Both the position numbers and the translations under genes were made by a program. Below, piece after piece: positions 1,593 through 40,350 of a stretch of DNA of 64,000 nucleotides. The stretch comes from Apostichopus japonicus (Eukaryota > Echinodermata > Holothuroidea > Aspidochirotida > Stichopodidae). The notes under the pieces were generated by a model that searched no databases, was not told where the DNA came from, and worked only from the letters and a program-made list of their open reading frames with translations. Within the stretch, counting starts at the first letter, position 1; the number at the start of each line of letters is the position of its first letter. The stretch is taken from positions 11,598,013-11,662,012 of the forward strand of contig NC_092577.1 in assembly GCF_037975245.1 (NCBI RefSeq), written 5' to 3'.

Positions 1593-2800
1593 ATTTAGGA
1601 AATTATTTCAACCCATTACTAGAAGCAACCTTAGAACTTCAGAGTGCTCTCAGCCTAAATATACAGACATTTATTCATCGAGAAATATTTCTTCTTAAGT
1701 ATATATTACAATGTTTGATATATTTGATATCTTGATTAATTAGATCGGACAGATAATTTCTATGATCAGCATCATCATGACTAATACTTTGTTAATATAT
1801 TTCAAAAGCTGGTCGGAATAGTGATATCCAAGTCTTATCTTCCTGGTAAAATATTTCTTCTGGTTAGGGCAGCTCCTTGGTTGGAGTCTCTGATATAAAG
1901 TTGTTTCCGAGAATATTCCATTTGTGGAGGTGAGCCCCTCTTGAATGTAGACCATGGCAAAGGCAAATATGTACTTAACGAGATAAAGCAACTCACCGAG
2001 GTATTTATGACAGGAATACACTAAAACAGTGAATGACTATTTAAAAATTAATTCTTGTAAAAGAGTATCGTTTACATGCACCTCTGACTGTACCTGACTG
2101 TCTATCAAATTAAATAATGTGAGATAAATGTTTAGGTTAAATTTATTTTTCACATACATTTCTGTATATTATTCATTTAAAGCAATATATCAATAAACAC
2201 TCTTAGGTTGTTTTGTTTGTAACTTTATACTTTTTTAGAATGATATTCCTTCCAACTTTTTTGTTTGTGATTCTTTCTCTATATATCTGAACAAATCTTG
2301 GCGACTTGTAAATCGTAAATATGATTGACATTGATTTTACTTACAAATATTGTCTTTTTCTTCTGTGCATTGCGTCAGTTTTAGGGTTGCCGTGGGGGGG
2401 GGGGAGGGGGGTGGGCGAGGAGGAGGTTACCGTTAGATGTCTGCTGTAGCGAAAAATAGAGATGTATTTGCATCCCCTTTCAAATCCAACAGGTTCTATT
2501 TTAACTAATTGAGCTGCTGTCATGGTTATGCGTCTCTCTGTCTGTTGTTGAAATTCATTTATTTCATTTTATGAAAATAAAAGTCTTATAGTCTTATCGA
2601 GGCCACATAATGTCAAGAATTTAAATAAAGGGCTCTGATGTGACATATGTATACTCACAATGTGACTTTAGTGAGGCACAATTAAGCAGAAAATTTGTTG
2701 AACTAGACCTTTTTGGAGCAGAATTTAGTTTACAAAAAAATAATTCAACTGCTGCTCATATTCTTTTATTTGGAAACGATCTGTATATATTTGTCATCTT
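1593..2800 (+). repeat. TRIM 3'-flank repeat module (copy 1)
   Basis: This non-coding stretch is closely repeated downstream of the TRIM gene at 21932-24055 (24056-25460), inverted next to the TRIM gene at 46616-48778 (45230-46615), and at 62540-63560. Shared landmarks are a short antisense frame containing CHKYLGELL at about 1878-2021, a G-rich tract at 2394-2412, and an AATTAAGCAGAAAATTTGTTG block near 2680. The repetition shows that the gene and its flank were duplicated together. In this copy the antisense frame has lost the TGA shared by the others and reads on towards 1740. Confidence 0.75.
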
Positions 2801-2861
2801 TATATTACATTGAATGACAAACAAAAAGATGATCAGCCACATAAGGTACATACATACAGTG

Positions 2862-2967
<106 letters not shown>

Positions 2968-3448
2968 ACCATGCACATATAATCTCTTTTGAAGGTAAGT
3001 TTCCCAAGATTTATATATTGATTTTTACATTATGTTACACGCTAGCCAAATACAAATGTATATAGCTATAAATGGAAAGCAAAGAAAATTTATTTTTATC
3101 GACAGCATCGACGTAATCTACCACACATGTTTACTTTTTAATAACGAGCCCTGGAGGCAAGGACTAGTTCTATTGATATGACTATATAATACACGGCGTC
3201 ATAGATGAATGTAGACAATAGGGAAACTGGTAATGAATGTTACATACAACATCGATCCAATTTCCAGTGACCAAGACAACCGACGAGTTCTACAAAGATG
3301 AAAGTTAATTTATTACTTTATATGGTTTTCTGAAAATAGAAATGAATAAACAACGATAAGACATTGTTGTAATGTCAGACTCAAGCTATATCTATATATT
3401 ATCGATTTCTATCTCATTATGCTGCAGAAACTCAATAGTCAACATTGG

Positions 3449-3450
<2 letters not shown>

Positions 3451-3504
<54 letters not shown>
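3451..3504. repeat. (AT)n microsatellite
   Basis: 54 bp of pure AT dinucleotide, ending in GTGTGT. Confidence 0.95.
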
Positions 3505-3510
<6 letters not shown>

Positions 3511-3596
3511 TAGACATGCAGCACATTTGAGCACATCATGAGGAGTTATTTCATGAAAAATTGGATATTAAAATATAATTTATTTCAATGTTAATT

Positions 3597-3600
<4 letters not shown>

Positions 3601-3636
<36 letters not shown>
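3601..3636. repeat. (AT)n microsatellite
   Basis: 36 bp of pure AT dinucleotide. Confidence 0.95.
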
Positions 3637-6151: not shown

Positions 6152-7290
6152 TCAAATGTATGAATTTGAGAATTGTACAATATAGCTTACATACATAAAA
6201 ATGGAATCTAAAACTTGATTTTCCTTTGTAAATTATAAGTTTAAGTTGATCAGTAGCATGCTTAAAAAATTAAAAATTTCAGAGGCTTTCATCCTAGTGT
6301 AACCAGAGCAAAACCTGGTCAATTTTTTGTTGTTGTGTATGTTAATCGTTTTCTTTCACTTTCCTACTTTTGTTTTTATTTAATTGATCATTCCTTTAAT
6401 TTTCTTATTTTGTTTTTATTCATTGGATAAAGAATTACTTTAGATTGAGAAGTTCCCTAAATTTTAACTTTTATTGCTAACTACTTCATGGCAACAGTTT
6501 GTGGTCAGGTGGCCCTGTGTGACCTGCCAATTTTTTTTATCGAAGTAATTTTTATGTGTGGTCCTTGTTTACTAGGAATACATGTGCTAGCTTCAAGAGT
6601 ATATCTGAGTTTCCAATAGTTATATGATAATGGAGAAGGGATTAGGTTAGAGATGCTGGTGCACCAGATTAACATATTTTCTTAGACTAACAACATAGTT
6701 AGAATAGAGGATCTGTATTATCCTATGATCAAAGTTAAGTCAACACTTAAAACTCTTTACCCATGCATGTTGGTTTCATCCTGTATTTAGAAGCTTAGTG
6801 AACACCTTGAGCTGTTTAATTCATGAAGATTTTATTGAGAATAAACGTTTACTGATCACCCAAAGCAATACTTGAGTTTTGAGTTTGTAGCATATTTTGG
6901 GAGTGATACGGGTGATTGTCAGGTGTGTATCATTATCAACATATTCAATTTGTTTTGATTGATACAACAGCTACGAAAATTGAGATGTATTCATCTTCAT
7001 ATATGTAGCATTGCTCCACCCCCCTCCAACCGCACCATGATGAAATGTTTTAATGTTTATGTGGGACATTTTCTCAGTACAAGCCAAATTGAAAGAAGCT
7101 GTAGGTAATCATTCCATATAGTATAGATTAAAATGCTGTGGGCTAACATTGTTCAAACTCTGGGCCGAAATATGCACGTCACTGATTGCTGTTGAAGATG
7201 GACTTGGTGAAACAGGGCAAGGCGTTACCAGCGCATGCGCTAACATCTACACCATCCCAAGGAAGATCTTTCAAAACGTGAGCAATATTA
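6152..7290. other. no gene recognised
   Basis: AT-rich, non-coding in appearance, with stops in all frames. I see no domain, tRNA or terminal repeat. Confidence 0.5.
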
Positions 7291-7294
7291 TAAT

Positions 7295-8469
7295 CTGTCA
7301 TGGTAAACTTAACAGCTAGGGTTAATATTTGATAGCCTCAAGAAAACAAGTTGAGGTTCGCTAAGTAGTTTGGTGTGCACATGAATTCAAAGCTGGGGAA
7401 TTGGGCAACGGGGTGAAAATGTCCCCCAACTGTTTCGGGTATAATTCTGAACATTTTTGGAATACATAGAATCAGTTTAAAACGTCAAATGGTTGAATTC
7501 TGAGGCATAAATTCAGGTAGATACAACTAGCTCTTAATGTAAGTTTGTGCTAATGAAAAAAAAAACTCGAAAATTTCCCCGACTGAATTAGATAGTGACA
7601 TGATCCCCCACCCTTCGGAAAGAAAATTAAACTTTAGACGTCAACTGGTGCATTCTGAGACATATCTAGACTATATGTCTATAGAAGCAGGAGGTTTTGC
7701 TACTAAATGATTTGAGATTACAAAGGGAGGTGGGAGCGAAGGGTACATACGTAGTAGTGGTCCTATTCTTCCCCAGAAGAAATGCAAAATTCCCCAACCA
7801 TGAACCGTTTCCCCCCGAATGACGACATTTGTGCAGCTGGTTGTTATTCATTTTCTCACCCAGCCTTCTTTGGGAAGTGGAAAGTTTCAGAAACTAAGCA
7901 GAATTATATTGTTACATTTCGGTAAATTAAACAGTGCGCAGCATCTTCGTATTACGGAACATGGTAATAATTGTGCAACTTTGGTACACAGTCATTTTGG
8001 GTTTAAATTATAAAATGTTTCCTTCTAAAATGTTAACCAATAATTCTCTTTTGCGGAATATACAGAATATTTTGTAGCATATATCCTTCTCAAACTGAAA
8101 TAAATATTTAGCACGTCTACGACACGTGAAACGTGTCATACAATCGGTATATAGACTATGAAAAATCGTTGATCCATGACACGCCCACCTGTATTTGCAT
8201 ATTGTCACTTTTTTCAGGAATTCCCCAGTATGTTAACAACTTCTTTTGATCGTGACCTCGAGGTTACTTTGTGATACATCACATTTGGGCCGTTTCGAGT
8301 TGTATTATACTTGCATATACACAGAGTACCGTGTAACGACACGTGGGATACCGGTAATTCATACAAGAAAAATTGGTGCAAACTGTGTTATGTGCAGTTG
8401 TTGTTATATTGTTTTGAAGTACAATATTTTTTACATCAACCTTTGGGTGAGATCTTTACGATAAATTAG
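7295..8469 (+). repeat. Direct duplicate module, copy 1 (ends at donor-like site)
   Basis: This segment is closely repeated in the same orientation at 10198-11364. Landmarks are AACAGCTAGGGTTAATATTT, AAGTTGAGGTTCGCTAAGTAG, TACATACGTAGTAGTGGTCC, the octamer ATTTGCAT, GGAATTCC and TTTACGATA-AATTAGGT. The similarity stops at the G of ATTAG|GT, where copy 2 has GTAAGT but copy 1 switches abruptly to the palindrome array at 8470. Its central part (about 7.9-8.15 kb) also matches, inverted, the sequence around 32.2-32.6 and 61.15-61.6 kb. Confidence 0.8.
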
Positions 8470-8471
8470 GT
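8193..8471 (+). promoter_or_regulatory. Promoter-like module with octamer and kappaB-type site
   Basis: An exact octamer ATTTGCAT (8193-8200) lies 16 bp before GGAATTCCCC (8217-8226), the complement of the kappaB consensus form GGGGAATTCC. About 245 bp further on, the conserved block GAGATCTTTACGATA-AATTAG runs into GT (8470-8471), where other copies have the splice donor GTAAGT. The same order occurs at 11.1, 17.5, 20.2 and (inverted) 55.4 kb. I infer a promoter plus untranslated exon of the TRIM family. This copy is cut at the donor and may be dead. Confidence 0.45.
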
Positions 8472-8702
8472 CACTCTAAAAACAAGAGTGGATTTTCACT
8501 CGTTTGGAGTGAATTCTCACTCTTTCTGAGAGTGTAGTAGGTGATCACTCCATGAAGAGTGCAATTCACTCTTCTAAAAGAGTGAGAATGTTCACTCATT
8601 CAAAGAGTGAGTTTTTCACTCTAAAAGAGTGGGCTGTTTCACTCTATAAAGAGTGAGAATCACTCTTTTAAAAGAGTAAATTTCACTCTTTAAAGAGTTA
8701 AT
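8470..8702. repeat. Array of ten consecutive short palindromes (CACTC...GAGTG)
   Basis: Ten head-to-tail hairpin units with a period of about 22-24 bp, each of form (T)TCACTCT, 2-8 bp of A/T-rich loop, AGAGTG(A). Examples are CACTCTAAAAACAAGAGTG, CACTCTTCTAAAAGAGTG, CACTCTATAAAGAGTG and the closing CACTCTTTAAAGAGT. Arms are conserved while loops vary, and some units carry compensating or single changes (CACTCGTTTGGAGTG). No unit encodes a protein. It is not a CRISPR array: there are no equal spacers and the repeats are themselves palindromic. It begins exactly where paralogy with 11364 ends. Confidence 0.9.
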
Positions 8703-9847
8703 GATATTTTACTGCTGATTTTGATTAACGGGATTGATAGAATGAGTTTATGACTCAATGGGAAGGCCCTATCTATTCACAGAAATATGGCTATTGTACA
8801 AGGATGCATCCAAAGATCAAGACAATTGAAGGGACTACTACACTAGATTTGGACACTGTTAAAAAAATATAAAAAAGACAAAGACAACAATTTATGGTAT
8901 TAAATATATATTAAACAGTGAAAAAGATACCAAATTTCACATACAAACACAGACTGAAGCAAAATTACAAACGTACAAAGGCACAAAAATATGCAATGAA
9001 TGATTCACTCACCCCACTTGTATGTTCCTCTTATACAAATGTGATTTTCTTATAATTAAAAATAATTCTAGTTACGTCCATGAAACATGTATCAAAGTGT
9101 GCTGGCAATACCTCAAAAATGTTTTTACAAATAACGCAATCTTACAATTTCAATTTGCTATATGCAAACATTGATCATTTTCGAACTCGTTTTTGCGCCT
9201 TCATAAATCTGTGAAAAATATATGAAGAGCAACAATCACACTGGGATACTACTGTCTATGAACGGTGAAACGAATATGTTACAGCACAATGGTAAATTCC
9301 TGACAGATAGAAATTAAACGCTCCGTCCTATGTACATCTAAACCCGTCAACCCTCTGGGTGGCAAAACTTTTAGGTTTAGAATAGTAATTTATGCAAACA
9401 TTTGAAAGGAAATTAACTACTATAAATTCATATTAAGGCACTAGTAAATATATTTAAATAATTTTTTTTTTTTTTAAATATCTTTAACTATGGGAATTGG
9501 ATCACAACTATTCAATTTGGTTTTGCAAACAATCCCCTCCCAAAAGAATTTCCTATGATAGGGTACTCATAACTGAGTTTTAAAGTTCAAAATAATGGTG
9601 GCGTCTGAAAACCATCTAGCAGTGTCCAATTTTTAAACAGATGCATTGGGACCATGTAAAGTAATAATGTAATTAAAATGAATGAAAATATCAAAATAGA
9701 AAGTGAGTCTAGTGGTATAAACTTGGAGTTCATACTATGCTATTGAATAAATCCTTTACAAAGAATGCATAATCTATTAAAGGTTATATATATTACAGGT
9801 TATATATATATTAAGGTTATATTATATATTATATTATACATTATAAG

Positions 9848-9927
<80 letters not shown>

Positions 9928-10197
9928 GGGGGGGGGGTAGGTCTATGATATTTCAACTGAAGTAATAGCTACCTGTCTACATACCTTTAATCTTTGAAAT
10001 GTATGAATGCTCACACATTTGCCAGAGAAACATTTGCCAGAGACCTAACTTGTGGAGTTACCTCATATGGTCTTACCATGTACCTTAAATATAAGCTCTT
10101 CAAAAATATTTTAAAATGTTGTGTCCACAGCCTACCTGAAACGACAAAGTTATTTCAAAACATTATTACCCAGTTTAATAGAGCAATATTTAATCTG
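8703..10197. other. No gene recognised; spacer between duplicate modules
   Basis: Found only in copy 1 of the 7.3/10.2-kb duplication. It is AT-rich, with a poly-T run at 9462-9475 and (TA)n at 9851-9924 followed by a run of about ten G at 9927-9936. If the palindrome array at 8470 is the left end of an inserted element, the other end should lie here, but I found no matching inverted end. Confidence 0.5.
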
Positions 10198-11370
10198 TTA
10201 TGGTAGGCTTAACAGCTAGGGTTAATATTTGATAGCCTCAAGAAAACAAGTTGAGGTTCGCTAAGTAGTTTGGTGTGCACAGGATTTCAAAGCTGGGGAA
10301 TTTTAGCCGGGGATTTAAAATGTCCCCCAACTGTTTTGGGTATAGGTCTGAACATTTGTGGAATAAATAGAATCAGTTTAAAACGTCAAATGGTGAACAC
10401 AAGTAGCTGTCAAAGTAAGTTTGTGCAAATGAAAAAAAAACTCGAAAATTTCCCCGACTGATTTAGATAGTGACATGATCCCCCACCCTTCGGAAAGAAA
10501 ATTAAACTGTACACGTCACCATCCTGGTGCGTCCTGAGGCATATCTAGACTATTTGTCTATAGAAGCAGGAGGTTTTGCTACCAAATACTTTGAGGTTAC
10601 AAAGGGAGGTGGGTGGGAAGGTACATACGTAGTAGTGGTCCTATTCTTCCCCAGCAGAAATGCAAAAGTCCCCCAACTGAACCGTCCCCCCTCCCCCAAC
10701 TGATGACATTTGTAAAGCTGGTTGTTATTCATTTTCTCACTCAGCCTTGTTTGAAAATTCGAAAGTTTTCAGAGACTAAGCAGAATTATATTGTTATATT
10801 TCGGTAAATTGAACAGTGCGCAGCATCTACGTATTACGGAACATGGTAATAATTGTGCAACTCTGGTACACAGTCATTTTGGGTTTAAATCAAAAAATGT
10901 TTCCTTCTAAAATGTTAACCAATAATTATTCTTTGCAGAATATACAGAATACATTATAGCATACAGCCTTCTCAATCTGAAAGAAATATTTAGCACGTCG
11001 ACGACGCGTGAAAAGTTCCATACTATCGGTAAATAGACTATGAAAAATCGTTGATCCGTGACACGCCCACCTGTATTTGCATATTGTCACCTTTCTTTCA
11101 GGAATTCCACTCTATGGTGACAACTTCTTTTGATCGTTGCATCAATGATTACTTTATAATACATCACAAAAGGACCGTTTCGAGTTGTATTATACTTGCA
11201 TATAGACAGGGTACAGTTTAACAACACGTCATGTAAAGGAGATACCGGTAATTCATACAAGAAAAATGGTTGTAAACTGTGTTATGTGCAGTTGTCGTTA
11301 TTTTGTTTTGAAGCACATTATTTGTGACATCAACCTTTGGGTGAGATCTTTACGATAGAATTAGGTAAGT
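10198..11370 (+). repeat. Direct duplicate module, copy 2 (donor intact)
   Basis: Second copy of 7295-8469, offset by about 2.9 kb and differing by scattered substitutions and small indels. It retains ATTAG|GTAAGT at 11361-11370, followed by the GAGCATTCACTCCAATATAT sequence that also follows the donor-like site at 17.74 and 20.49 kb. Confidence 0.8.
11075..11370 (+). promoter_or_regulatory. Promoter-like module, kappaB site mutated
   Basis: The octamer ATTTGCAT is at 11075-11082. GGAATTCCAC at 11101-11110 is the kappaB position, but one C of the run has become A, so the site is weakened in this copy. The donor-like ATTAG|GTAAGT ends at 11370. No coding exon with the TRIM acceptor follows nearby, so this may be an orphan promoter. 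Confidence 0.4.
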
Positions 11371-13075
11371 GAGCATTCACTCCAATATATTGTTTTAATG
11401 TCTGCCTTTGTCCATTTGCTATGAAATAGAAATCGTTCGATATATGCAATGGCTAGTAAGTACTTCCTCATTGGGAGTCTCTACATTGGGTTCCATTGTA
11501 ACTGCCGTATTCTATATTGTAGCGCGTTATATAATTATGTTTGTAATGCCTGCAGCTCCATACTTAAATATTTCAATCATAATGATGGAGTACAGTTTTT
11601 CAGCAATTTGATGAATTGAAAATCATTGACTTCTAATAGACTGCCAAAATAATGACTCTGGTAACTACTGAAAATTTAAACTTCAGTATAAGTCCAAATC
11701 AGAACTAAAACAACTGTATTTGTATACAAGCAAGTGTCATTTTAGAGCACGGTGAAGGTGAAAGATAGTTAGTTGTTGATGTTCAACGGAGGGAGTCTTA
11801 GTTACTGCAACCCCTTTGAAGTTATTTCGGTCACGAAGAAACCAGTTAGGTGTTTGGTCCTCTAACGTAGACCAAAGCTAGGCTATATTGTGTGATGTTT
11901 ATAAACAGTACTCTAGCTACCATGTACCTGCAATATAAACAAAGAAATGATGACTAAAACCATCACAGATTAACCGGACAACCAGGCTGCCATCACGAAT
12001 CACGCCTGTTTCGGACGTGACAGAGAATAAACTGAGCCCTGGTCATATTGAACAACATGTTAACGTTACTGTATTCTCGCTGCCAGTTGGCGAAAATGTA
12101 TAACATACGGTGCTTTACACCGAAGAACTAATGCACTATTAACCTAACGAAAAATGCACACATGTCACACTCTCCGGTCTATTAAACACTGCTTGGTCAA
12201 TTTCCTGGACCTGCCAGAATATTATGCCATACACGGCCAACCGTATACGTACGAAGTAGCTACCTGCGGAAACTATCACTGTGTGGTATATAATTGCACC
12301 ATGCACCATGTTTTTTATCAGTGATGCATTACTCTTGTAGAGCTTGCAACTTGAAGCAATATAGTACATCACAACTTGCATATGTTGGGTAGTTAAAGCA
12401 GTATATAGTCAATATTATTTTGTTTAGTATTTTGTTGTTGTAATTGGTACACGTGCCAATGGCGTAATGGTCGCAACTACTTGTACTTTAAATATTGTAC
12501 TACAATGGATAAACACCACTGGTCGTTGAATTGTTAATATGTCATAATGATGCCCATTGTATGTTTCCTTTTGGAATTGGTTTTAAGTGATGATAACATT
12601 GTCTCTGAGATGTGTAGATAGTGTATCGTTGTTTTATTTGTCTTAGTATTGTTTATTTTCATTAATTAACCTTTGCGCAAATAGTCCGTTGACAATTTAT
12701 AGCCACTGCTCAGAGCTTGATTATGCTTTTACTTTGATTTGATCTTGAACTATGTAGTTGCATGTTTAAATGCATGGCGCCACCAAACAAGAGTGGTAAG
12801 ATATAAAACACCGCTTCTTTGTATTTCTTCCACGACATCCTTACACAAATATAATGTTCCCATGCGTCATAGTTGCACATTAATGTTTGAGAGGACAAAA
12901 TGGTGGCAACTTCCCCATACTGATGAGTAAAAAATAGAATATATTGCCAAGTCTGCACATATGATCAAGGACATTTAAATACTCGTTGTAAATTGATATT
13001 GATACCTTTCCTTCATTTCATGTACATAAAAGTCTTATCAAGGCCACACAATGTCAACAATCTAAATAGATGTCG
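11371..13075. other. No gene recognised
   Basis: About 130 bp after the donor is still similar to the sequence following the donors at 17.74 and 20.49 kb (TCTGCC, CGATATATGCAATGGCTAG). Beyond about 11.65 kb the sequence is unique in the window, and I see no domain, repeat array or RNA gene. Confidence 0.5.
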
Positions 13076-13885
13076 CTGAAACAGCGCTAAAACATTTCCT
13101 CCCCCAGAATATACTCAGAATGCTTTATCAAACTTAAATAGCACTGCATTTATGATGCTGCTTGATTATTTGGTCTGGTACAAAACAGTTCACCTTTAAG
13201 CCACAACAGAAGTGTGCAATACGTCATATATCTCACACAGCATCGTGTGAACATATACTACTCACTAGCCCATATTTTGTAAGAACTCGATTTATTGAGA
13301 TTAGATGATATCATAAAAGTTAATTTTGCGACATTTACATACAAGGTTTGGAATGGTTTATTTACCAAACAGTTTTTTAAATAGCAACCGAGAGTTCCAT
13401 AATCATCATGCAAGAACGGTTAGTAACGCACATTGTAACTTATATTATGCACGCAGTGTTATGCTCAGCATAATATACCGTGCAATCTAAACATGGAACT
13501 CACTATCAAATGCTTTCAAAACTAAGAAATCAAGCTCCATACTTAGAAAATGCCTTATCAAAGAACTTATTATTCCTTATTTACTATTAATTAGTGGTAA
13601 CTGAAACATATACATATTATTATCATTATTTTCACCTTTTTTTCTTTCTTCTCACTGGGAGTAGCCTTTTCTGTGTTGTTAAACCAGTATAGGCTTTTCA
13701 GAAGACTTCCCTATACATTGCAAATATTTACGTGAAAAAACAAATACATAAACAAACAAACAAACAGACTATGAACCAGAATGCAAAAATGCATTGTATT
13801 TTTCGATGATGTAACATGAGAAGTTTTCTTCATAAATCTGACGTGATGTATAGTGAGGGTGTACATATTTACAAGGGTTTCACGA

Positions 13886-14470
13886 TTTGACCTTTGATGA
13901 CCCCAAATGACCTTTAACCTCCACCAAATACAATATGCTTCTTTAACTAAATGTGGTACTTCTACACACTAAATTAGAGATCGGCCCAAGCTTTTCTTCT
14001 TGAGATGTCGTGTTTAAAAGGTTTTCATAATTTGACCCCGGGTGACTCCAAATGACCCTTGCCCTCCACCAAAAACAGTAGGTTTCTTTTATACAATGTG
14101 GTACTCCTACACCACAAATATGAGGTCTGCCGATGATTCCCTTCTTGAGATATCGTGTGACCAAGGTTTTCACAATTTGACCCCTGGTAACCCCAAATGA
14201 CCTTCGACCTCCACCAAAAACAATATACCACTTGTACTGAATGTGGTACTTCTACATATCAAATATGAATTTGGTCTGATCTTCTCTTCTTGAGATATCG
14301 TATTTACAAGGTTTCCATAATTTGACCCCTGGTGATCCCAAATGACATCGACCTCCACCAAAAACAATAGGCTTCTTGTACTTAATGTGGTACTTTTACA
14401 CACTAAATATGAAATTGGTCTGATCTTCTTTTCTTGAGATATCGTGTTTACAAGCTGGGCGACACAAACA
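13886..14470 (+). repeat. Satellite-like tandem repeat, about 145-bp period
   Basis: Four units beginning TTTGACC at 13886, 14031, 14175 and 14321. Each has TTTGACCCCTGGTGACCCC, AAATGACC, CTCCACCAAAAACAATA, AATGTGGTACTTCTACAC and TTCTTGAGATATCGTG. Because 145 is not a multiple of three, long open frames pass through the units in shifted frames; these are not proteins. An inverted copy, split by a LINE, lies at 57237-57736 and 58745-58850. Confidence 0.85.
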
Positions 14471-21105: not shown

Positions 21106-21931
21106 AATTGTTATGAAACAAATGATGGTGCTTCATGGATATATGAAGACCTTCCTCTTTAGCACATTGGCCTTTCTAGAACGATATCGGCTAGGGTTGT
21201 AGACGCAAAATGTTGCTTTTATTCCATTGTAACTACATATGTGTATACCACATTTGCATTCTTAAGGAAAACCATTTTGAAATTAAGTCCACAATTTCAG
21301 ACATCTGAACTTTATTAAAGATTTTTACAATTAATAAGAGATATGTAAACTTAAATTCGTGCGAGTGTTATAAGATTTAAGCAATTGGAAGAACATTTCC
21401 GAAATAACTTTGACCGAGTGGAGGGAAGGGACACGTGAGCATTAACTAAATGGATATTGCCTTGTATTAAATAAGATATCGAGTATTCACAATAGCATAG
21501 CAGAAATGTAGGTCAGTGCACACAAGTATCTAATATATCTTCATTTTTGGCTCAAATTGAGATGTTGTGTTTATATTAATGACGACAATTAAGTTTGCAT
21601 GATGTGCATTTATAATGTTCAGAGAAATGTTGTTCTTTTGATATGTTTTAAGAAGAAAACGTTATGAGTACCGTAGATCAATTGCTGGTGTAGAACAAGT
21701 CGTCTAATACTAATAAATGTCTTTGAACAAAAAGTTTACCCTTTACAATACTCACTCCCACCTCGCCAACAATCCCGGTAATTAATTGAATGAATTATGA
21801 TATAGCTAGAGATTTGCACTAAACATCTAATTTAATTAATGTTTAGTCTTACTCATTCTCACAACGACTACAGCAGTATTTGTAAATTTCTTTATTATTT
21901 TGTAAATTGCAGAATCTCGTCATCAAGACAA

Positions 21932-24055
21932 ATGGCTTCGTCAACTCCTCTTACTAATCTGGGAGAGAAATTCTTCGTGTGTTATGATTGCCAGGAAATA
22001 TGTAGAGAACTGACATTTCATATGTATTTTAAAAATCGCTGGAAGTGTCCATTGTGTAAACAGGAATTCGTTATACCAAAGGAATGGGTTGACAATTTCA
22101 AGACCGACTTCCATATGAACAGTGTGCTTCAGTTCATACAATTGAAAAAGTCTTTTGAAGAATTAAAGAAATGTTCTCTCTGTTTAAAGAAAACAAAAGT
22201 TTCAGCTTATTGTTTTAAGTGCAGAGATTACTTGTGTAAACAATTTTACAAGGTTCAAGTCGGCAGTAAAATGTTTACAGATCTCAAAACCTACATTCTG
22301 AGCTTGGATAATATAGAAGCAAAGAATATGACACTGGATAAATTAACATCACTAATGGAAGATCCCAGGTGCCATATCCATGACAAAAAAGAAGCGCAAT
22401 TGTGCTGCAGTTCTTGCAGAAATATACCTGTGTGCTCGGCTTGTACATATCATGAGCATAAAGGTCATGACCTGCATAACGTAACTGAAATAGCAGAACG
22501 TGAAAGAAAATTACTGAAACAAGAACTTGCTGAACTAAACAAATACAAAGATCAACTATACGAATTGCCAATGAAAATAAAAATTACTCAACAGAAGCTG
22601 AATGAAAATGCCATGAAAAAGACAGAAGGATTTATAAATGAGCACCAGCAGCAGACACACAAGATTAAAGATCAACTTGCGGAATGTACTAAGGAACGAA
22701 AAAGAGGTTTAGAGGACATCGGAAGCAGAAAAAGAGATAACGACCGTCAGATCACTCTTAATTTGAAAAAGGAGTTGAGACAAGTAAGAGAGAAATATGA
22801 TAAAATCAGGAAAACAGCAAATCAAGAATATGACAACGAATCTGAAGAGTTAATAAACAAATGTGATGAAACCGAGGGCGCACTCTTAAAAAAACTTGGA
22901 AGCCTAGATGTTAACTTGAAGAATTTTACATCAGCAAAAGACCTGCTTGTAGGGCAAAATGAAGATGAACTAAAACCATTAAGAGAATATCGCGAACAGA
23001 TTATTAAACGATACGAGAACCTCACAGCAACGACCTCATCTATTCTTGCTACTAAAGACGATTGGACACACGCTCAGTGTATTCCTGATATTAGAGTAGC
23101 ATGTGAACCCCTGATAGAAGAAATGAAAAAGAAATATCCAGAGGTAGAATATTTATCTGATTTCGATATCAGTGATATAATGAAGGCTATGAAAGACAAC
23201 GTCACGATTGCTCAGCATCAAGAGTCCGTGGTTGATGTTGCAGGAATCAAAGTTAAAGGTGGATGTTTCAATGATATTAAAAGCAGAGGAAATATCAAGA
23301 TTGTCATAATTCATAAGCCAACTGAAGGGTACTCACATATCACTGTGTTCAACAGAAAAGGTGAAATACAACGACAGGATCAGATTGAGATGGATAAGGG
23401 CATTCCAATATGCGGTCTATTGTATGGGTTCAAAGCTGTAACATGGAATCTTTGGTGTAAAATCGGTATATATGATGTACGTGATGGCACATATATCACA
23501 AAGGACTGTCTTAACTTCATTACTAGTTGGCCATCCGCTCACGACGTGATTTGTGTAACTACGGATCCTGTAAAGAATCATATTATTGTTGGTACTGACA
23601 GCAGAGATGTGTACGTATTTACTGATCAAATGAAATACAGCCACATGATTACACTACCAGATGTTATATATGAAACGTATGATATAACTGTTCATAGAGG
23701 TAGTCTCCTGGTATGTGGCAACTATATTGAGAGAGCAGCATATGCAGTCACCATGGAGGAATCACAGAGTAAACTGATGTATGAATTCACCAAACCAGAT
23801 CTTGATGGATTGGACTGGAAACCCGCCAGAGTCTGCACAGACAAGAATGAGTTCATCTACATGCTATGGAAAGCAGGCATCTTACATCGGAGATGTATTC
23901 TGGTACAATACGGCCAGGATGGCCGACAGTTATTGACAAGAACAGTAGATAATGACGTTGACCGTGTGTCAACATTTGAAGAGAACGGTATAGAAAAACT
24001 CTTGATGACCACAACGATGGGATCTTTCTACACGTTCGACCTAGTAGTGACGTAG
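21932..24055 (+). CDS. TRIM-like protein with eroded RING and B-box 1
   Basis: The start ATG at 21932 is chosen because MASSTPLT is shared with the paralogue at 48778 and a conserved acceptor (TTGCAG) lies 19 bp before it; the in-frame codons upstream look like intron. The product is 707 residues. Compared with the complete paralogue, the RING keeps C17, C20 and the last pair C39, C42 but lacks the middle C-x-H-x2-C-x2-C and is 16 residues shorter. B-box 1 has lost one Cys and several His ligands (CKQFYKVQ where the paralogue has CEQCYKVH). B-box 2 (CHIHD...CC..C...VC..C.YHEHKGH) is intact, followed by a Lys/Glu-rich coiled coil of about 165 residues and a propeller-like C-terminus. The frame is uninterrupted. 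E3 ligase activity is therefore doubtful, but B-box, oligomerisation and C-terminal binding could remain. Confidence 0.85.
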   Translation: MASSTPLTNLGEKFFVCYDCQEICRELTFHMYFKNRWKCPLCKQEFVIPKEWVDNFKTDFHMNSVLQFIQLKKSFEELKKCSLCLKKTKVSAYCFKCRDYLCKQFYKVQVGSKMFTDLKTYILSLDNIEAKNMTLDKLTSLMEDPRCHIHDKKEAQLCCSSCRNIPVCSACTYHEHKGHDLHNVTEIAERERKLLKQELAELNKYKDQLYELPMKIKITQQKLNENAMKKTEGFINEHQQQTHKIKDQLAECTKERKRGLEDIGSRKRDNDRQITLNLKKELRQVREKYDKIRKTANQEYDNESEELINKCDETEGALLKKLGSLDVNLKNFTSAKDLLVGQNEDELKPLREYREQIIKRYENLTATTSSILATKDDWTHAQCIPDIRVACEPLIEEMKKKYPEVEYLSDFDISDIMKAMKDNVTIAQHQESVVDVAGIKVKGGCFNDIKSRGNIKIVIIHKPTEGYSHITVFNRKGEIQRQDQIEMDKGIPICGLLYGFKAVTWNLWCKIGIYDVRDGTYITKDCLNFITSWPSAHDVICVTTDPVKNHIIVGTDSRDVYVFTDQMKYSHMITLPDVIYETYDITVHRGSLLVCGNYIERAAYAVTMEESQSKLMYEFTKPDLDGLDWKPARVCTDKNEFIYMLWKAGILHRRCILVQYGQDGRQLLTRTVDNDVDRVSTFEENGIEKLLMTTTMGSFYTFDLVVT

Positions 24056-30084: not shown

Positions 30085-31494
30085 TTACGTCACGACTATG
30101 TCGTACGTGTAAAACCTTCCCGCTTTCCATGTTGCTATTAGAAGTTTTTCCATACCGTTCTCTTCTAATGTTGATACATAGCGAACGCTATCATATATTC
30201 TTCTTGTTGTGAGTAACTCTCGGCCATCCTGACTGTATTGTACCAGAATACATTTCTGCTGATGTAAGATGGCTGCTTTCCATAGCATGTAGATGAACTC
30301 ATTTGTGTCTGTGCAGACACTGAAAGGACTCCAATCCAATCCATCAAGATCTGGTTTGGTGAATTCATACATCAGCTTACTCTGTGATTCATCCATGGTG
30401 ACTGCATATGATATACCACGCGAGTTGTCACAGACCAGGAGACTATCTCTATGTACAGTGATATCCTTCGAGCAATTGATTACATTTGGTAGTGTAATCA
30501 TGTGACTGCAATTTATCTGATCAGTAAGTACACATGCATCTCTTATGTTAATACCAACGATAATATGATTCTTCACAGGATCTGTAGTTATACAATTGAC
30601 GTACCAATCAAGTGGCCAACTAGTAATGACGTTAAGAATGCTTTGCTTGGTAAATGCACCATCACGTACATCGTAAATACCGATTTCATAAGGCAAAAGA
30701 ACTGTAATGATAACTTTGAACTCAGATAACAAACCGCAGATGATCACGCCCAAATCACTTTTGATCTGATCCTGTCGTTGTATTTCACCTTTTCTGTTAA
30801 ACACAGTGATGTATAAATACCTTTTAGATGCCTTATGAATTATTGCAATCTTGACATCTTCTCTGCTTAAAATATCAGTGAAATGTTCACCTTTAACTTT
30901 GATTTCTGCAACATCAACCGCGGACTCTTTATGCTGAGCAATCTTGACGTTGTCTTTAAAAGCCTTCGTTATATCACTGATGATAGAGTCTAACTCTGGG
31001 ATTTTTTTCTTTATTTCTTCTATCAGAGGTCCACATGCTACCGTAATATTAGGAATACGCTGAGCGTCTATCCAATCGTCTTTAGAAGCAAGAATAGTTG
31101 AGGTCGTTGTTGTGATGTTCTCGTATCTTTTAATAATTTCTTCTCAATATTCTCTTGATTGGTTTAGTTCATCTTCATTTTGCCCTACAAGCAGGTGTTT
31201 TGCTGTTGTCAAATTCTTCAGGTTAACAACTAGGCTGCCAAACTATGTTAAGAGTGCGCCCTCGGTTCCATCACATAAACTCTTCAGATTCGTTGTCATA
31301 TTCTTGATTTGCTGATTTCCTGATTTTATCATATTTCTCTCTTACTTGTCCCAATTCCTTTTCCAAATTAAGAGTGATCCGACGGTGGTTATCTCTTTTC
31401 CTGCTTCCGATGCCTTCTAAACCCCTCTTTCGTTCCTTAGTAGGCCTACATTCCGCAATTTGATCTTTAATCTTGTGTGTCTTCTGTTCTTTTT
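30085..31494 (-). pseudogene. TRIM-like pseudogene, 5'-truncated, with frameshift and two stops
   Basis: Minus-strand homologue of the coiled coil and propeller-like parts. The last frame (open from about 31143 to 30085) is intact to the usual VVT end. In-frame TAG at 31243-31245 and TGA at 31144-31146 replace sense codons of the paralogues. A deletion of about 7 bp near 31278 (after the SEEF residues) shifts the frame, and a 6-bp insertion (AGGCCT near 31441-31446) adds two residues. RING, B-boxes and the start of the coiled coil are missing: similarity ends near 31494, where LINE-derived sequence shared with 60.45 kb begins. It could still be transcribed but cannot make a TRIM protein. Confidence 0.85.
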
Positions 31495-31840
31495 CCATTT
31501 TATCGTATATAATGAGTTTTGTCTTATGAGGGGTTTTAACAAGAAAGGATAAAGCCAGAAACCAGGAATTGAGAAACAGTACATGCGTTTTGGATATTAT
31601 CCAAGTCATAAAGCAAAAGAAGTTGAGATAGGTGGGTCATTTAGCTAGATGTCAGGATAAGAGATGGACACATAACTTGACAGATTGGACACCAAGGGGT
31701 TATTTTAGAGGCAGAGGTAGGCATGACATAAGAGAATATGGTGGGGTCACATGGAAGAGAAGAGCTCAGGACAGAGTTAATTGGAAAATTGGTGAAGAGG
31801 CCTTCCTTCTGCAGTGGAGCGAAATAGGCTAGATAAGAAT
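31495..31840 (+). mobile_element. LINE fragment, C-terminal end of the reverse-transcriptase ORF
   Basis: On the plus strand this reads, with breaks, like the C-terminal tail of a non-LTR retrotransposon polyprotein: VLDIIQVIKQKK, then GHLARCQDKRWTHNLTDWTP, a RGRGRHDIREYGGVTW segment, RAQDRVNWK, and EAFLLQW before a stop. The order (GH-AR..D.RW...L..W.P, RGR, W, A.DR..W) is familiar from jockey/RTE-like LINE ends. A near copy lies at 60455-60785. Its end abuts minus-strand LINE sequence, so it is nested. Confidence 0.6.
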
Positions 31841-32337: not shown

Positions 32338-32833
32338 ATTCTGTAAAGAAGTATTTTGGGTTAACATTTTAGAAGGAAATATTTTATGATTTAAGCCAAA
32401 AATTACTGTGTACCAAATTTCTCCAGTTGAACTTTTGCACCACAAGAATGGGTTTGCCTTCTTTGCATAATTTTAGACAAAATTTGCAAAATGATTTTCC
32501 TGTTCCGTAATGCTTAGATGCTTCGTACTGTTTAACTTACCAAAATAGAACGTAATAACTCTGTTTAGTTTCTGAAAATGTTCCACTCTCAAAGCAGGCG
32601 GAGTGAGAGAATTAGTACAGGTCTGCACAAATGTTTGAATGCAGTCTTTGGGCCTTAGAAATTATCAAATTGGCTTTACGTATACTGTCAAGTTACAGCA
32701 AATATATACAGCGAATATTGCCTATAAAAATGTAGTAATTCCATGTACATTGTCAGATTCAATAGCACAAATGTGCACTCTGTGCAAGTATTACACGTGC
32801 GTAATACGCTCTCATTGACAGTTATACAATGTC

Positions 32834-33398
32834 TATAACTGAAGCCATCAAAAAGGACCGAGTCTTCTACGGAAGGTTGCTCTTTAATTTATTCTTCTTC
32901 TTTTGTTCTTTACCTTCGTGAAAACTACAAATACAAATACAAATAATAATGATACAAACAACTACAAAGTGCACATTCGATAAAATACATATACAATGGG
33001 ACAGGAAGAAGCTTTTAGGTCCTGGGTAAACTTATAACATTAAACCATAATATAAATTAACATACCTCTTTGGACTCTTGAAAAAATAACGGCTTAGTTG
33101 GTAGTCTTAAGTTAAGGAGTGGCAAAATTTTTATCTGAACAGCATGCATGGTTGTGGTCTGTACAAAGACTTTTCAGTATGTGAGGAATATGCCCAGTCC
33201 GAGACGTCTCGGCTTCTTACACAAAACAATTTAAACTAACTATTGTGCGGTGCTGTCATGCGAAGAATTTCGCATCTGGGAATGGTTGCCATGCAAGATT
33301 GCACGAGAATGCTGCAGAGCTTACAAATTATAAATACGAACAGGTTTAAATATCAATGAATATATTTTACGCGTAGAAATTGTGAATCAACCTTTACA
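32834..33398 (-). repeat. 3' LTR of the BEL/Pao element
   Basis: By eye no difference from 40351-40915. Preceded (in element orientation) by the purine-rich TTTTGAGGGGCCA, whose complement lies at 33399-33411 and which is the likely plus-strand primer tract. It contains a perfect 14-bp palindrome CCGAGACGTCTCGG (33199-33212). Confidence 0.95.
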
Positions 33399-33747
33399 TG
33401 GCCCCTCAAAATGATACTTTCATTTTTTAACCACGAAACCTGATATTTGATTCACATCACAAATACTATACTACACGTATCGAAAATTAAGCTAGTGTCA
33501 CAATTACCCTTTCACATAGCCTAACTATCCATAGATATTAAAACATGGACATATTATCAAAGATGGGAATATGCACATTACACAAATAATATGATCGATA
33601 TATATAACCAATAATAAATACCTACAATTACAAAACCTAGCAATCATTTCACAAAAAAAGATCAACGTAGTACATAAAACACGTTATGGCCCCTCATGGG
33701 GAACCAAGGTGCGAAACACAAATTGTCCCTCGTGAACGCACTTTGGA

Positions 33748-36700
33748 TTACTCCGTACTTTCCACAAGAACAACTAATTTGTGAATAGGTCTTTCCAAAC
33801 ATACTACGGGACCTGTACGTTTGCCCCTTTTATCTAGAGTAGAACTCATATTAATCTTAACCTTACGTACACGACCATCATGATCGACAATTGTTTGACT
33901 GATTCTAGCTAATTGCCAGCGGTTTCTCGGGGTATTTTTGTCCTCAACAATCACAATGTCACCTACTTTCATGTTACGAGTATGGGAAACCCATTTTTGC
34001 CGTGGCTGTAGACTCAATAGGTATTCTTTTCTCCAGCGGGTCCAAAATTCATTGACCAAGTATTGTACTCGACGCCATCTTTTACGACAATATAAGTCGG
34101 CTGACTGAAACGCACCGGGAGGGGGAAGTAAGACCTTAGATTTCTGTGTGAGTAAGTGATTGGGAGTTAAGGGTTCTAAAGACCTGGGATCGTTCAAATT
34201 ATCAGTGGTGAGAGGCCGACTGTTGACAATAGCAGCCACCTCATATACGAAGGTCCTCAAACTCTCATCATCTAATTGTGTACCCATACCATCGATCATA
34301 GAAGCTAGCACACTCCGCACAGTGCGAATCTGGCGCTCCCAAACGCCACCCATGTGGCTCGCATCTGGTACGTTTAACTTGAATGCAAAGAAATCGCAAT
34401 CATGCTCCAGAAGAAAATGCTTTATTTTACTATTATCCATCTCATTTAAAGCTTTCTGGAGCTCGTTTCTTGCCCCAATGAAGTTAGTACCTTGATCGGA
34501 ACGAAGCTGTTTAATAGGCCCTCGTATGGCTAAAAAACGCCGTAACGCATTCAGAAAGGAATCTGTGGTAAGGGAATTCGCTATTTCAATATGGATAGCT
34601 CTGGATGCCATGCAGGTAAACAGCGCACCATAACGCTTCAGTTCCTTTCGACCCTCTTTAACAAAGAAAGGCCCAAAATAATCTACACCACAATAGGTAA
34701 AGGGGGTGGATGGATCTACCCTATCCGATGGTAAGTCGGCCATTTTCTGTACTTGAGCCTTACCACGCAGTTTTATACACGTTACACATCTGTGGATATG
34801 GCTAGATACTGCAGAACTGCAACCAATTATCCAGTACCCGTTACTCCTTATCTCGTTCGTGGTAATACCACGTCCCTGGTGCTTGACCCTTTCATGAAAG
34901 TAACGAATCAATAAATTGGTTATATGATGTTTACGAGGTAGAACAATTGGGTGCTTAAATGTAATAGAGACGTGAGCCCTACCTAAACGCCCCCCTACAC
35001 GTATAATACCATCCTCGCCGATGAATGGGTCGAGGCGATATAAAAGACTGGACCCTTTCAACACCTTGCCAGTTTCTTGGGTCTTACTAGTTAGGCTTTT
35101 GAATTCACTTACAAAATATCTCATTTGAACTGCCCTGACAATTTCTAATTCAGCCTGAAGAAAATCGTTTGCTGTTAGCTGCTTATGGAGGGGAGCAGAC
35201 TGAATTTTTGAGTCATTTCGTAATCTCAACCGAGACTTCAATTTCAAACAGAGCGCAACTGCTTGTTTTGCTCTATACCAATTAGAAATATGATTCAGAC
35301 GCTCGGGTTCAAAGAAGCTGGGGGAGTTATCAGAGCGTGTAATTAAAACCTGTGCATTTGCCAGTTCTTGGTCAGTACTAATTATTTCTGGCAAGCGCTG
35401 TGGTGCATTGGGTATATCCCTCGCCCAGAGAAAGGAGGGCCCTGTAAACCAATTGGATTCACATGTCAATTGAACGGTAGTGAGCCCTCTAGAGGCAACA
35501 TCTGCGGGGTTATCAGTGGTACTAACGTACCTCCACTGTTCTGGGCTGGAATGATCCCGTATTTGTTGTACCCGATTTGCAACAAACACCTTAAACCTCC
35601 TTGCGTCATTTTGGATGTACCCCAATACAACTTGACTATCCGTCCAGAAATACTCTGAAATATCTTCAAATTCGAGTTCTCGAACCAAGTGAGAACTAAT
35701 CTTAACGGACAACAAAGCAGCTGTTAATTCTAGACGGGGCATAGTAATGGGTTTGAGTGGCACGACTCTAGACTTTCCCATAACTAATGAACAGTGAACC
35801 CTGCCCTCGAAATCTTTCAAACGTAGGTATGAACACTGGCCATATCCTGTTGTACTTGCATCGGAAAAATGATGCAATTCGACCGATTGGACTACAAAAT
35901 TGGGTGGTTTGAAACATCTTTTGACCTCAAGATTTTCCAATCGGTACAAGCTGTTTCTCCACCTTTCCCAACGAGGTCTTAGGGCACTGGGGAGGGGAGA
36001 ATCCCAGTCTAAATGCTCACTGCACATCTCCTGAAGTATTTGTTTCCCTACTAACACAACGGGAGCTAAAAACCCTAATGGGTCGTAAACCGAGCTTACA
36101 GTGGAAAGGATACCTCTCCTAGTGAGTGGTTTATCCTGTAAGGAAATTCGAAACTGGAACGTATCTGATTCTACGCACCAGTACACACCCAAGGCTCTCT
36201 CTATATTACTACTGTTGTACATTACATTAAGGTCCTTAACACCCTTAGAGTGTTCTTCAGGGGGGAGGGTACCCATAACCTTCGTGGAATTTGATGTGAA
36301 CTTGTGCAGTTTCAGACCAACACGTTGACACAGTAATTTTGACCTATTAATCAAATGGGCTGCCTCATCTTCAGTGGCAACGGACTTAAGTCCGTCATCG
36401 ACGTAGAAATTATGGCGGATGAAGTCACCAACATCAGACCCATATTCCTTCTCGTGATCAATAGCACTTTGTTTCAACCCAAAATTAGCACAGCCTGGAG
36501 AGGATGTTGCACCAAACAGGTGAACCCTCATTCTATACTCGACTGGATCTGACTGGAGATCCCCATTCTCCCACCATAGGAATCTTAAGAAGTCTCTGTG
36601 CTCCGGGTTTACACTGAACTGGTGAAACATGGCCTTAATATCACACATGAAAGCGACTGGTTCATGTCTAAAACGACACAGGACCCCAATAAGAGTATTC

Positions 36701-39700
36701 GTAAGATTAGGACCCTGGAGCAAATACTGATTAAGGCACTGACCTTTGAACCTTGCACTACAATCAAACACAACTCTAAGTTTGTCAGGTTTTTTGGGGT
36801 GATACACTCCATGGTGTGGAATGTAATTAATTCCACCATTTGTCCCCACAATTTCCTCCTGGGGAACCCTTTCGGCATACCGTTCACTTAGAAGGTCTTT
36901 CATGAAGGCTTCGTACTTTGCCCTATACTTTGTATCTAATCTAAAGCGCCGCTCAAGCCGCCGCAAGAAATGAAGCGCTAGATCTTTGTTGTCAGGAAGT
37001 CGGGGGTTTGAGGTTTTAAATGGCAAAGGCATCTCATAATGACCATCAGCAGTCTGATGAATCCCATCTCTTAATTTTGAGAGGAACTTGAAATCGTCCT
37101 GAGAATACGCTACTGTATTAAAACTTCTTTCACTAAAATCTGATTCAAGTAATTTCACAATATGGGCGGGGTCGATTTCCTTAATTGAGGACTGAAAACA
37201 TATTTCAATTTTATTTGGCGCGCAATTCTCAAATGACGTTTGACTTGCATTTTGAAATGTGTAGGAAGGGACGTCATAACTCAGAATGCGATGACTAAAA
37301 CCGATTGGGTCAGATGATCTATTTTCAACTTGGGTTGGGTCAATAAGTCCAACTATACCCCATCCAATATCAGTTTTCTGCCCGTATGGGCCATCCCCGA
37401 CTGGGGGTATTACTTCCCTAGGTAATAAGGCTTTAGGACAATTATATCCAATTAGCAACCCGATTTCGCAGTCCTGTAAGGGGACTAATTCAGAGGAAAT
37501 TTGATGCAAATGAGGCCACTGTTCAGCCATCTCAGGGGTCGGGATGTGACATTTATTGGCTGGAATAATATTTCTTGAAAAAGTTACAGGTAGCTCGATC
37601 TTGTAGGAACTGTTGTAACCACGTATCGCAAGTCCCTCAAACCGTGTGGTATCAATAGCTTGGTTCTTGGACACCATTGTTGACAGCAATATTTTGGTAT
37701 GATTTCCAACTACTCCTAATTCATTGGGTATACTATCGAGGACGAATGTAGTATCGGACTGTGTGTCCAAAAGGGCATATGTTAGGATCTCCCTTTGAGG
37801 GTTACCACAATGTGACAACCAAACTGGTACTGTAAGGGAACTTTTGCTAATCTCTTTAGTGTTATTCAATTGAGTTACACTAACATTACCATTAAGTGAA
37901 ATGTTTGCTTGGACCCCTTTATCAACGCTCTCAACATTGGGCTTTGGACTTTCCACTATATCCCGATGGAGTGAGGAAGGATGATTTTTCTTACACATTT
38001 TGCAATCCATTTTCTTCCGACAATCATGAACTCTATGTCCCCGCTTAAGACATCCATAGCAAAGTCCCTTTTCCCTGACGAAAGCATTTCTTTCGTGCAA
38101 CGTCATTTCTAGAAAAGTTTTACAGTCATCAATGTGATGCCTTTTTCCACACAGAAAACATTTTAGTTCGTAGAAGTTCCCATTTTGAATTGAATTTTGG
38201 GTAACACTCGTAGAAAATGCATTCGCCCCAGCCTTACTACGGTCATTCTTGATCATTCCTTGATTACCCCTTAACGCCTGAATTGAAATCACTGGATCGC
38301 AACTGATATTTGATTCTGTAACCATAAAATCCTTAAATTCTCTGAATGGTGGGAACCCTCTACCCTCCCTTCTTCGTTCGGAAACCTTTCTACCCCATCT
38401 CGTAATTAACCAATCGGGTAACTTGGAGAGCATTTTGCGATTTTCTCTTACATCATTGAGGACGTTTAAACTATTGGTGATGCGCATGGCACTTTCGCAT
38501 TGTCTCAGAAAGTCTGAAAACTTTCTAAGGGCTTCACCATCGCGGGGAGGAATTTTTGGCCAAGTGTCTAACTTATCCCTAAAGGCATTGGCTATCACGA
38601 ACGGATCTCCATAACGTTGATCCAGTAGTTGTTTTGCTTCCCCATAGGCCTGGTCAGTACATAAAAGGAAATACCCTTCTACAGCTTCCCTAGCTAGACC
38701 ACCCAGGTATTTTTTCAGGTAATGCATTCTTTCTACATGGGGGATGGATCTATGATCAATAAGGCTTTCAAAGGCACTCTTCCACCCCAGATACTTTAAG
38801 GGATCCCCACAAAATATACCAGGTTCAGGAGGGGGTAGGCGATTCAATGAAGCCTGTTCGCCAAATGCTCTAGCCAAACTCCTCATTTCAGTTCCCGATT
38901 CTTCCTGTTCCCGATTTACCGTTCTGTGACGATTTGTTTCAAAACTAGGCAAACCAAGGGGGTAACACCATGTATTTTGAGTGTTTGCATTTGAATTCGG
39001 GGGATTAGGCCTAGGAGCTGGCTGTGTTGACATATGATTGAATATTTCTGAGCCCATGGTAGTCGTAGGAGGACAAGGTATATCCATTAGGGGTTTAAAT
39101 TCAACAATTGGGTCCTTTGAGTAGGACTCTACTGGTTTAGTTTCTGCTATAGGATTATATGATGAGTGGGATACTAAGTAATCTTGAACATACTGCCCTT
39201 TATTCTCACTCTGGTCAGGGATATCCTCTAATGAAACCTTTGACTCTTGTTCAACCTTTGCAATCGCATCCAATTTAGCTTGAGCCATTTCAATTTCTCT
39301 CATAGTTTGTATTTTTTTCAATGCAGCATTTTGCTTCTCCTCTTGTTCGATGTATTTAAGTTTCGCTTGCAAGGCTGCTCTATGACCTTCGAGATCTGCC
39401 TTTTTAGAAGCGGTGGACCTTTGAGAAGAGCGCAAGCTGCGAGATGACCGGGAAGATTTGTGACTACTAGACCTATATGACTTTCGATCTTCGATTTCTT
39501 TAATGAGTGCAGCAACGCGTTTGAGTAGATGGTAGTTTTCTGCCTCAACGTTTTCAAATTTAGAGTAATCATTAGGCTTCTCTGCTATGGTTAGGATTTG
39601 ATTATAGTCTTCACTAGCGGCTGCAACATCATTCATTATTTGGTCTAGTGAATCGCGCTCTTGTTTCAGGACAGAAACATCCCTAGGATCTGCCATTAAG

Positions 39701-39948: not shown

Positions 39949-40350
39949 GGTGCCAATGGTATAAAATAGGATAACAATGTAAATTAATAATGCAATTAGA
40001 GGTAATCTTAACAACATTTCAGAGTGGCCATACGAGGTTACAAGAATGGTCTGTCAAACGGCTGGAAGGGACTCACTGGTGTAAAAACGATTATGTACTC
40101 TCACCGTTATCGTCCAGTTGATACCACCAGAGCGCTGGGGTTGTTCTTCAATCCGTGATGGATGGTCTCAGGTCTGGATCCCCCTTTACTGGTACTGTGG
40201 CTGGTGGAGGGCGAATAATCGTCGATGTCCGTGGTGGTTTACTCCGGCGACGCTGGCGAAGTCGGGACCGTCGCTTTCCGATCTTCAAAGGGAGTGGCTG
40301 ACAGCCCGTCTTGTAGTCTACGACTCTCTTAGGTGGTCAAGAGTTTTCAC
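39949..40350 (-). other. BEL/Pao 5' leader (primer-site region)
   Basis: Lies between the 5' LTR and the preferred Gag start. No TGG-starting tRNA primer site is obvious in the first 30 bases after the LTR (element orientation GTGAAAACTCTTGACC...). An open frame on the opposite strand at 40118-40438 runs into the LTR and is not supported as a gene. Confidence 0.6.

Follow-up and report, generated by a model that had tools for sequence, protein, structure and literature searches.

The row of ten CACTC...GAGTG palindromes in the analysed stretch of Apostichopus japonicus DNA (64,000 nucleotides, referred to as the window) is very likely the terminus of a dispersed, non-autonomous cut-and-paste transposon, in which the palindromes would be bound by a transposon protein. 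With this assignment, an odd hairpin array becomes a member of a recognisable class with testable ends. Points that count against it include three pairs of element ends with unequal flanks, the failure to find an element that combines these ends with a transposase, and the observation that in some comparisons other parts are better kept than the palindrome arms. The relevant features of the window are the following.

7280-8471, forward strand: copy 1 of the promoter-like module, into which the element has inserted, 86.7% identical to 10181-11366
8470-8471, forward strand: GT flank within the former GTAAGT, either the left member of a duplicated 2-bp GT target or a remnant of TA minus one A
8472-~10178, forward strand: right-truncated non-autonomous terminal-inverted-repeat DNA transposon, assigned by identity to relatives
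8472-8501, forward strand: left terminal inverted repeat, CACTCTAAAAACAAGAGTGGATTTTCACTC in the window and CACTCTAAAAACAAAAGAGTGAATTTTCACTC in most relatives, whose mirror image, differing by one base, closes L102, L103, L104 and L106 on the right
8472-8699, no strand: ten CACTC...GAGTG palindromes forming a subterminal array at the left element end; relatives have this array at their left ends too
8472, 8497, 8518, 8546, 8567, 8593, 8617, 8640, 8661, 8684: starts of the palindrome units, 21-28 bp from start to start
9785-9938, no strand: AT-rich microsatellite inside the element
10178-10181, no strand: putative deletion junction where the interiors of the element and of the next module meet, the right element end being missing
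10181-11704, forward strand: module copy 2, intact past a donor-like GTAAGT at 11365-11370 and truncated upstream

The palindrome array and its dispersed family

The initial annotation had described ten back-to-back palindromes at this place, and the description held far beyond shuffle expectation. Both arms are exact in eight of the ten units at 8472-8699, and the final two units end in GAGTA and GAGTT. Dinucleotide shuffling of this segment (2000 runs) gave a mean of 0.007 exact units and a maximum of one, and no exact unit was found elsewhere in the window in 231-bp segments sampled every 50 bp. Folded as single-stranded DNA, the array reaches -55.4 kcal/mol, whereas shuffled versions average -24.7 (z = -8.75). 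Such strong folding, together with a setting that resembles a gene leader, would suit a host regulatory or structural feature (a transcription-factor array, RNA hairpins or a cruciform) recruited at the promoter-like module. We consider this very unlikely, since an insertion brought the array here and many further sites carry it; the window copy alone may have a secondary host role.

In the genome (671.6 Mb, 35 contigs), matches to the array pattern number 376 (189 forward and 187 reverse, with several per element), compared with five (four forward, one reverse) for the reversed control. A search with window positions 8460-8900 scored 40 places among 59 candidates, one of them being the window itself. 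At 29 of the 39 other places the left edge lies within one base of window position 8472, while three begin 5-9 bp before it and seven begin later. In the aligned copies, the flanks are unrelated up to the equivalent of 8472 and the sequence is common thereafter. Because of this shared edge and the unrelated flanks, 8472 is the terminus of an element. The initial annotation had been correct about the array, but it had missed that, instead of a 233-bp feature, an element of ~1.7 kb starts at 8472 and extends to ~10178. Incomplete copies are common; L101, for one, retains only the first ~155 bp. Contig C16 holds 14 of the 39 non-window places. Many transposase matches are found on C16, C17 and C12, which are perhaps repeat-rich or unusual chromosomes.

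Over the aligned part of its first 430 bp, the window copy is 82-90% identical to eight of eleven copies and 75-77% identical to L093, L094 and L095. Its homology ends at ~10175-10178, and the relatives extend beyond this point. A 1.5-kb insertion at GTTAA is present in L104 (element position 2095-3622) at the same position as the break of the window copy, which is possibly a coincidence.

Element ends, target duplications and the insertion site

The full-length copies L102, L103, L104 and L106 stop jointly at ...CACTCTTTTGTTTTTAGAGTG, which is the mirror image of the left end (with changes in L104). The inverted repeat consists of CACTCTAAAAACAAAAGAGTGAA, a one-base difference and then TTTTCACTC, and the base preceding TTCACTC is A in most left ends and G in right ends. 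Further palindromes accompany the right end, three in L102, L103 and L106 and two in L104. The right-end pattern gave 24 + 19 matches compared with 0 + 0 for its control; with one mismatch allowed, it also matches left ends. End pairs were picked by hand from 100 of 283 end-pattern matches, 43 right-end matches and the flanks of two ends (L104 and L106). Equal 2-bp flanks were found in 20 of the 23 candidate pairs, namely 18 TA, one TT and one TG, with TA flanks being favoured among the ends found because one end-search pattern contains TA. Since equal TT and TG flanks occur as well, the flank is a duplication and not element sequence. The pairs that deviate from TA/TA are listed below.

C16:25142492-25151683: equal flanks, TT/TT
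C22:17370948-17377846: equal flanks, TG/TG
C9:12511542-12516535: unequal flanks, TA/TT
C3:1788293-1798405: unequal flanks, TA/GA
C14:1908217-1976023: unequal flanks, TA/AA; the ends are 67.8 kb apart and may not be a pair

The 23 pairs do not include C3:18887048-18891143, where the left end is degenerate, the L095 pair on C2 (TA/TA) and ends without a partner. The C18 pair contains an additional end between its two ends. For 21 pairs, the span between the ends is 2.7-12.6 kb, plus one of 40.3 kb (C16:19682529-19722797), and nested retroelement-like frames recognised by eye in L105 and L108 explain part of this spread.

An empty site is available for L095, a relative that differs in its interior and sits in a 57-bp satellite. 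The neighbouring satellite unit is uninterrupted and reads ...TTTTATTA directly followed by GTTGGGC, whereas the filled site reads ...TTTTATTA, element, TAGTTGGGC; one TA is thus present in the empty site and TA on both sides of the element in the filled one. The direct repeats that flank L095 are units of this satellite. Mirror-image fixed termini, along with a short target duplication and an empty site in the relatives, characterise a terminal-inverted-repeat transposon. A Helitron is excluded, as terminal inverted repeats and 2-bp duplications are present.

Among the roles that had been suggested for the array, subterminal repeats of an unrecognised mobile element proved to be right, given the dispersed copies, the fixed edge, the partner ends and the target duplications. 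The genome search proposed along with it for sharp boundaries, a partner end and target duplications was positive. Local slippage or growth from a donor-adjacent CACTCC seed, with no mobile element involved, would be in keeping with the ATTCACTCC that some paralogs carry a few bases past the donor and with a unit number that varies within the family. Its probability is negligible, since the same array and edge occur at many sites together with mirror-image partner ends and target duplications, and local expansion without an element was rejected in view of the dispersed copies and these partner ends. Growth from the nearby seed, as put forward earlier, is unsupported, because the array arrived with the insertion and has the same edge at many unrelated insertions. 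Replication slippage is likewise unsupported as the origin of the array at the window locus, although a slippage-like change in unit number is seen within the family (L102 compared with L105).

The window copy is preceded by GT and its right end is gone, so that its own target duplication is not visible. We aligned seven uninterrupted paralogs of the module, four from the window and three of five that were fetched; L122 and L124 were dropped as the search motif was not found in them. Six of the seven read ATTAGGTAAGT and one reads ATTAGTAAGT, while in copy 1 ATTAGGT is directly followed by CACTC. The first base of the array is hence exactly the point of divergence between copy 1 and its paralogs, as had been noted before for copy 1 against copy 2. 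Since the seven paralogs are uninterrupted at this position, the element landed in a donor-like site. Judged from its sequence, GTAAGT is a putative working splice donor; of the lost donor claimed initially, the donor-like site stands as the insertion target, and the donor function is predicted from sequence only. The transposon interrupts the donor-like GTAAGT of one module in a duplicated cluster, where the duplicated pair may be GT, with no further change needed, or TA, with one A lost. A later deletion would have taken the right end of the element and the start of the next module.

Modules related to these two are found at C17:11.12-11.89 Mb (search with window 7240-7700). Thirteen other C17 matches begin at window 7241-7244 (query base 2-5), whereas copy 2 begins at base 41, which corresponds to 7280; the remaining C17 matches are partial and begin at query base 199 or later. 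Because the 13 matches extend upstream of the equivalent of 7280, copy 2 itself has been cut. The simplest account is a single deletion that took out the right-hand portion of the element together with what remained of paralog 1 and the upstream portion of paralog 2. It is hardly credible that the 1190-bp direct repeats (7280-8471 and 10181-11366) are the giant target duplication of a different mobile element, an idea suggested by copy 1 ending at the element start and copy 2 beginning at the element end. The relatives have 2-bp duplications, and the 13 upstream-extending matches place the start of copy 2 at a breakpoint. As the deletion explains the exact abutment of modules and element, a giant target duplication is not needed.

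Based on their position in the window, the modules probably serve TRIM-like genes. TRIM-like frames lie beside them at 21836-24055, 30085-31143, 31271-31636 and 46616-48871, and the one frame that was tested contains a RING and a B-box. Insertion into a donor-like site of a tandem gene cluster with an apparent deletion represents one route by which members of such a cluster can be lost. A second element end, similar to that of L095, is located in the same cluster region (L125, C17:11275390-11275412). The window also contains an LTR element at 32833-40915, BEL/Pao-like by eye, which is probably a very recent insertion because its 566-bp LTRs are identical and its 2101-aa frame is uninterrupted. 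A 145-bp tandem repeat forms two inverted blocks at 13868-14454 and 57236-57736 within longer inverted duplicated segments.

Coding capacity and affiliation

The longest open segments within the ends of L102, L103, L104 and L106 are 97, 98, 107 and 124 aa, respectively. No transposase-like frames were recognised by eye in these four copies, and no Pfam families were detected in three sets of selected L103 pieces. Since the open segments are this short and Pfam families were absent, the element was taken as non-autonomous. A transposase may be split over many small exons within the element. L117 and L118, which are single-ended and combine the same ends with other interiors, gave no Pfam families for one frame each. 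In L118, a 164-aa open frame without Pfam families runs towards the element end (element positions ~30-520); its far part gives the impression of resembling a host membrane protein exon and is possibly captured host sequence.

The location of transposase matches in the genome was compared by eye with 21 of the 23 end pairs (without C3:1788293-1798405 and C14:1908217-1976023). None of the 20 matches to Transposase_21 (PF02992), 15 of which are over the cut-off, lies inside these pairs. The same holds for all 45 matches to DDE_3 (PF13358), all 33 to DDE_1 (PF03184) and all 117 to DDE_Tnp_4 (PF13359; PIF/Harbinger-ISL2EU), the best candidates having been scored for these three families. None of three PF02992 loci (L110, L116 and L119) has a CACTC array, each showing one chance-level near-match in a stretch of 7.5-9.9 kb that may not reach the element ends. 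A transposase gene has been amplified in tandem at C9:37375603-37459054, where fourteen equally scoring DDE_3 matches have open frames of 273-384 aa and mostly follow one another at ~5.7 kb.

A non-autonomous Tc1/mariner (IS630-type) element with a TA target, CA...TG ends and a DDE_3 or DDE_1 transposase is an unlikely source of the family. TA flanks 18 of the 20 equal-flank pairs, where the search pattern favours TA, and both DDE_3 and DDE_1 are present in the genome. However, the targeting of TA by Tc1/mariner elements is close to strict, and here one TT/TT and one TG/TG pair occur and none of the DDE_3 or DDE_1 matches falls inside the 21 pairs. To our knowledge, large palindrome arrays are not usual in Tc1/mariner elements.

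It is somewhat better than an even chance that the family belongs to an animal lineage of the CACTA/EnSpm type (CMC) that makes 2-bp duplications and whose autonomous partner is undetected or extinct here. The available part of one source describes the CMCT group by CA...TG ends and 2-5 bp duplications, and includes in it the TA-duplicating ESTA (PMC12730594); such ends and duplications are found in our family, as is a repeated subterminal motif at both ends. Furthermore, a 2-bp repeat accompanies 7 of 14 copies of the animal CACTA-type element SmTRC1 according to the accessible sections of its description (PMC1636069), a soybean CACTA element has subterminal repeats that form stem-loops in the portion of text available (PMC2613891), and Transposase_21 is present in the genome. 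This assignment is opposed by the location of all Transposase_21 matches outside the 21 pairs, by the three loci that lack the array and by an inverted-repeat core of CACTC instead of CACTA. The element works like a CACTA element and is not filed as one.

It is possible, if doubtful, that the family represents an undescribed animal transposon lineage, defined by a common palindromic array with differing interiors, a single protein that reads CACTCTTTNAAAGAGTG-like palindromes, a transposase outside the four Pfam families tested and an array that evolves by gain and loss of single hairpins. The families of differing interior comprise the window type, the L095 type, the L117/L118 type and a second array-carrying repeat.

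Conservation and putative role of the array

The array region is better kept between subfamilies than the interior that follows it. Between L105, of the main subfamily, and L108, identity amounts to 72/80 in the arms, 75/78 in the spacers, 39/52 in the loops and 343/490 in the adjacent interior, and between L105 and L109 the respective values are 69/80, 62/78, 40/52 and 254/490. That the arms are better kept than the loops does not hold for every pair, as the loops (46/52) exceed the arms (63/80) between L108 and L109, with spacers at 63/78. In the close copy L100, the arms (69/80) are below the interior (447/490). L095, L117, L118 and L125 have other interiors, yet their ends and similar palindromes are kept. 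The unit number also differs, L102 being one unit longer than L105, which indicates gain or loss of a single unit. The array region is thus kept between subfamilies while the interiors change.

Most likely, a transposon protein binds to the array, much as happens in CACTA/En-Spm elements. The palindromes would be repeated sites, probably for a dimer, of a transposon-encoded protein that is supplied in trans and would assemble at the two ends ahead of excision, in the manner of TNPA on the En/Spm subterminal repeats, and the array would gain and lose single units of ~23 bp. The En/Spm subterminal motif contains CACTCTTA. In the part of the literature available to us, the element-encoded TNPA of En/Spm is described as recognising subterminal repeats needed for excision, and the subterminal repeats of soybean Tgmt* as forming 12 stem-loops on the right and two on the left (PMC2613891). 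The family resembles CACTA/En-Spm elements, and especially Tgmt*, in its CAC-initial terminal inverted repeats, its short duplication and its asymmetric direct and inverted subterminal repeats in stem-loop rows (PMC2613891). In contrast to CACTA/En-Spm elements as portrayed in these excerpts, the duplication is 2 bp instead of 3 bp, the termini have CACTC instead of CACTA, the host is an animal and no transposase was found. In its layout, the array is an animal counterpart to the subterminal stem-loop arrays of plant CACTA elements.

Other elements share some of these traits, as far as the accessible text of the respective sources goes. The EnSpm-like ESTA has the TA duplication and CA...TG ends of the CMCT type, but it is fungal and carries transposase and TET/JBP genes (PMC12730594); the word 'subterminal' is absent from that paper (PMC12730594). 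SmTRC1 and the animal TRC elements of the CACTA superfamily have 2-bp duplications and terminal inverted repeats in an animal host, and SmTRC1 has an internal tandem-repeat region; unlike our family, SmTRC1 has a CCC core in its terminal inverted repeats, encodes Transposase_21 and has no palindrome array in the sections available (PMC1636069). A further partial source on animal CACTA-type elements is PMC4298943. The Aedes ATon elements are likewise non-autonomous, have terminal inverted repeats, target a dinucleotide and lack a known autonomous partner, and one of their families has subterminal stem-loops, but in the excerpts their target is AT and not TA, their stem-loops are single and their ends are unrelated (PMC3422177). 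In partial descriptions, Foldback, Galileo and Tetris likewise have terminal regions made of internal repeats; their inverted repeats are long and internally repetitive, whereas the window family has a short one with short palindromes.

Non-autonomous terminal-inverted-repeat transposons with subterminal repeats are well known as a kind, and an animal element that bears ten hairpins in tandem on one side is an unusually elaborate example. Our literature search found no published description of the ten-palindrome array, and the family may be catalogued in Repbase or Dfam. It belongs in a repeat library for this genome. A scan of a viral collection (76 stretches) yielded no evident relative, the best 14 including few real arrays and those of other sequences. 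In the viral contigs L043, L022 and L040, the arrays consist of palindromes resembling CACTCTGGAAACCAGAGTG and ACACTCTAGAACTAGAGTGT and are unrelated to the one in the window.

The second array-carrying repeat of the sea cucumber genome (L111-L115; C1, C2 and C3) has its similar palindrome array embedded in longer repeat sequence. Its five copies share most of 1.9 kb, with pieces that are 89-97% alike. This repeat, with AACACTCTAAAAACAAATGAGTG, accounts for 31 of the 34 two-mismatch places among the matches listed, of 217, and probably comprises ~200 copies.
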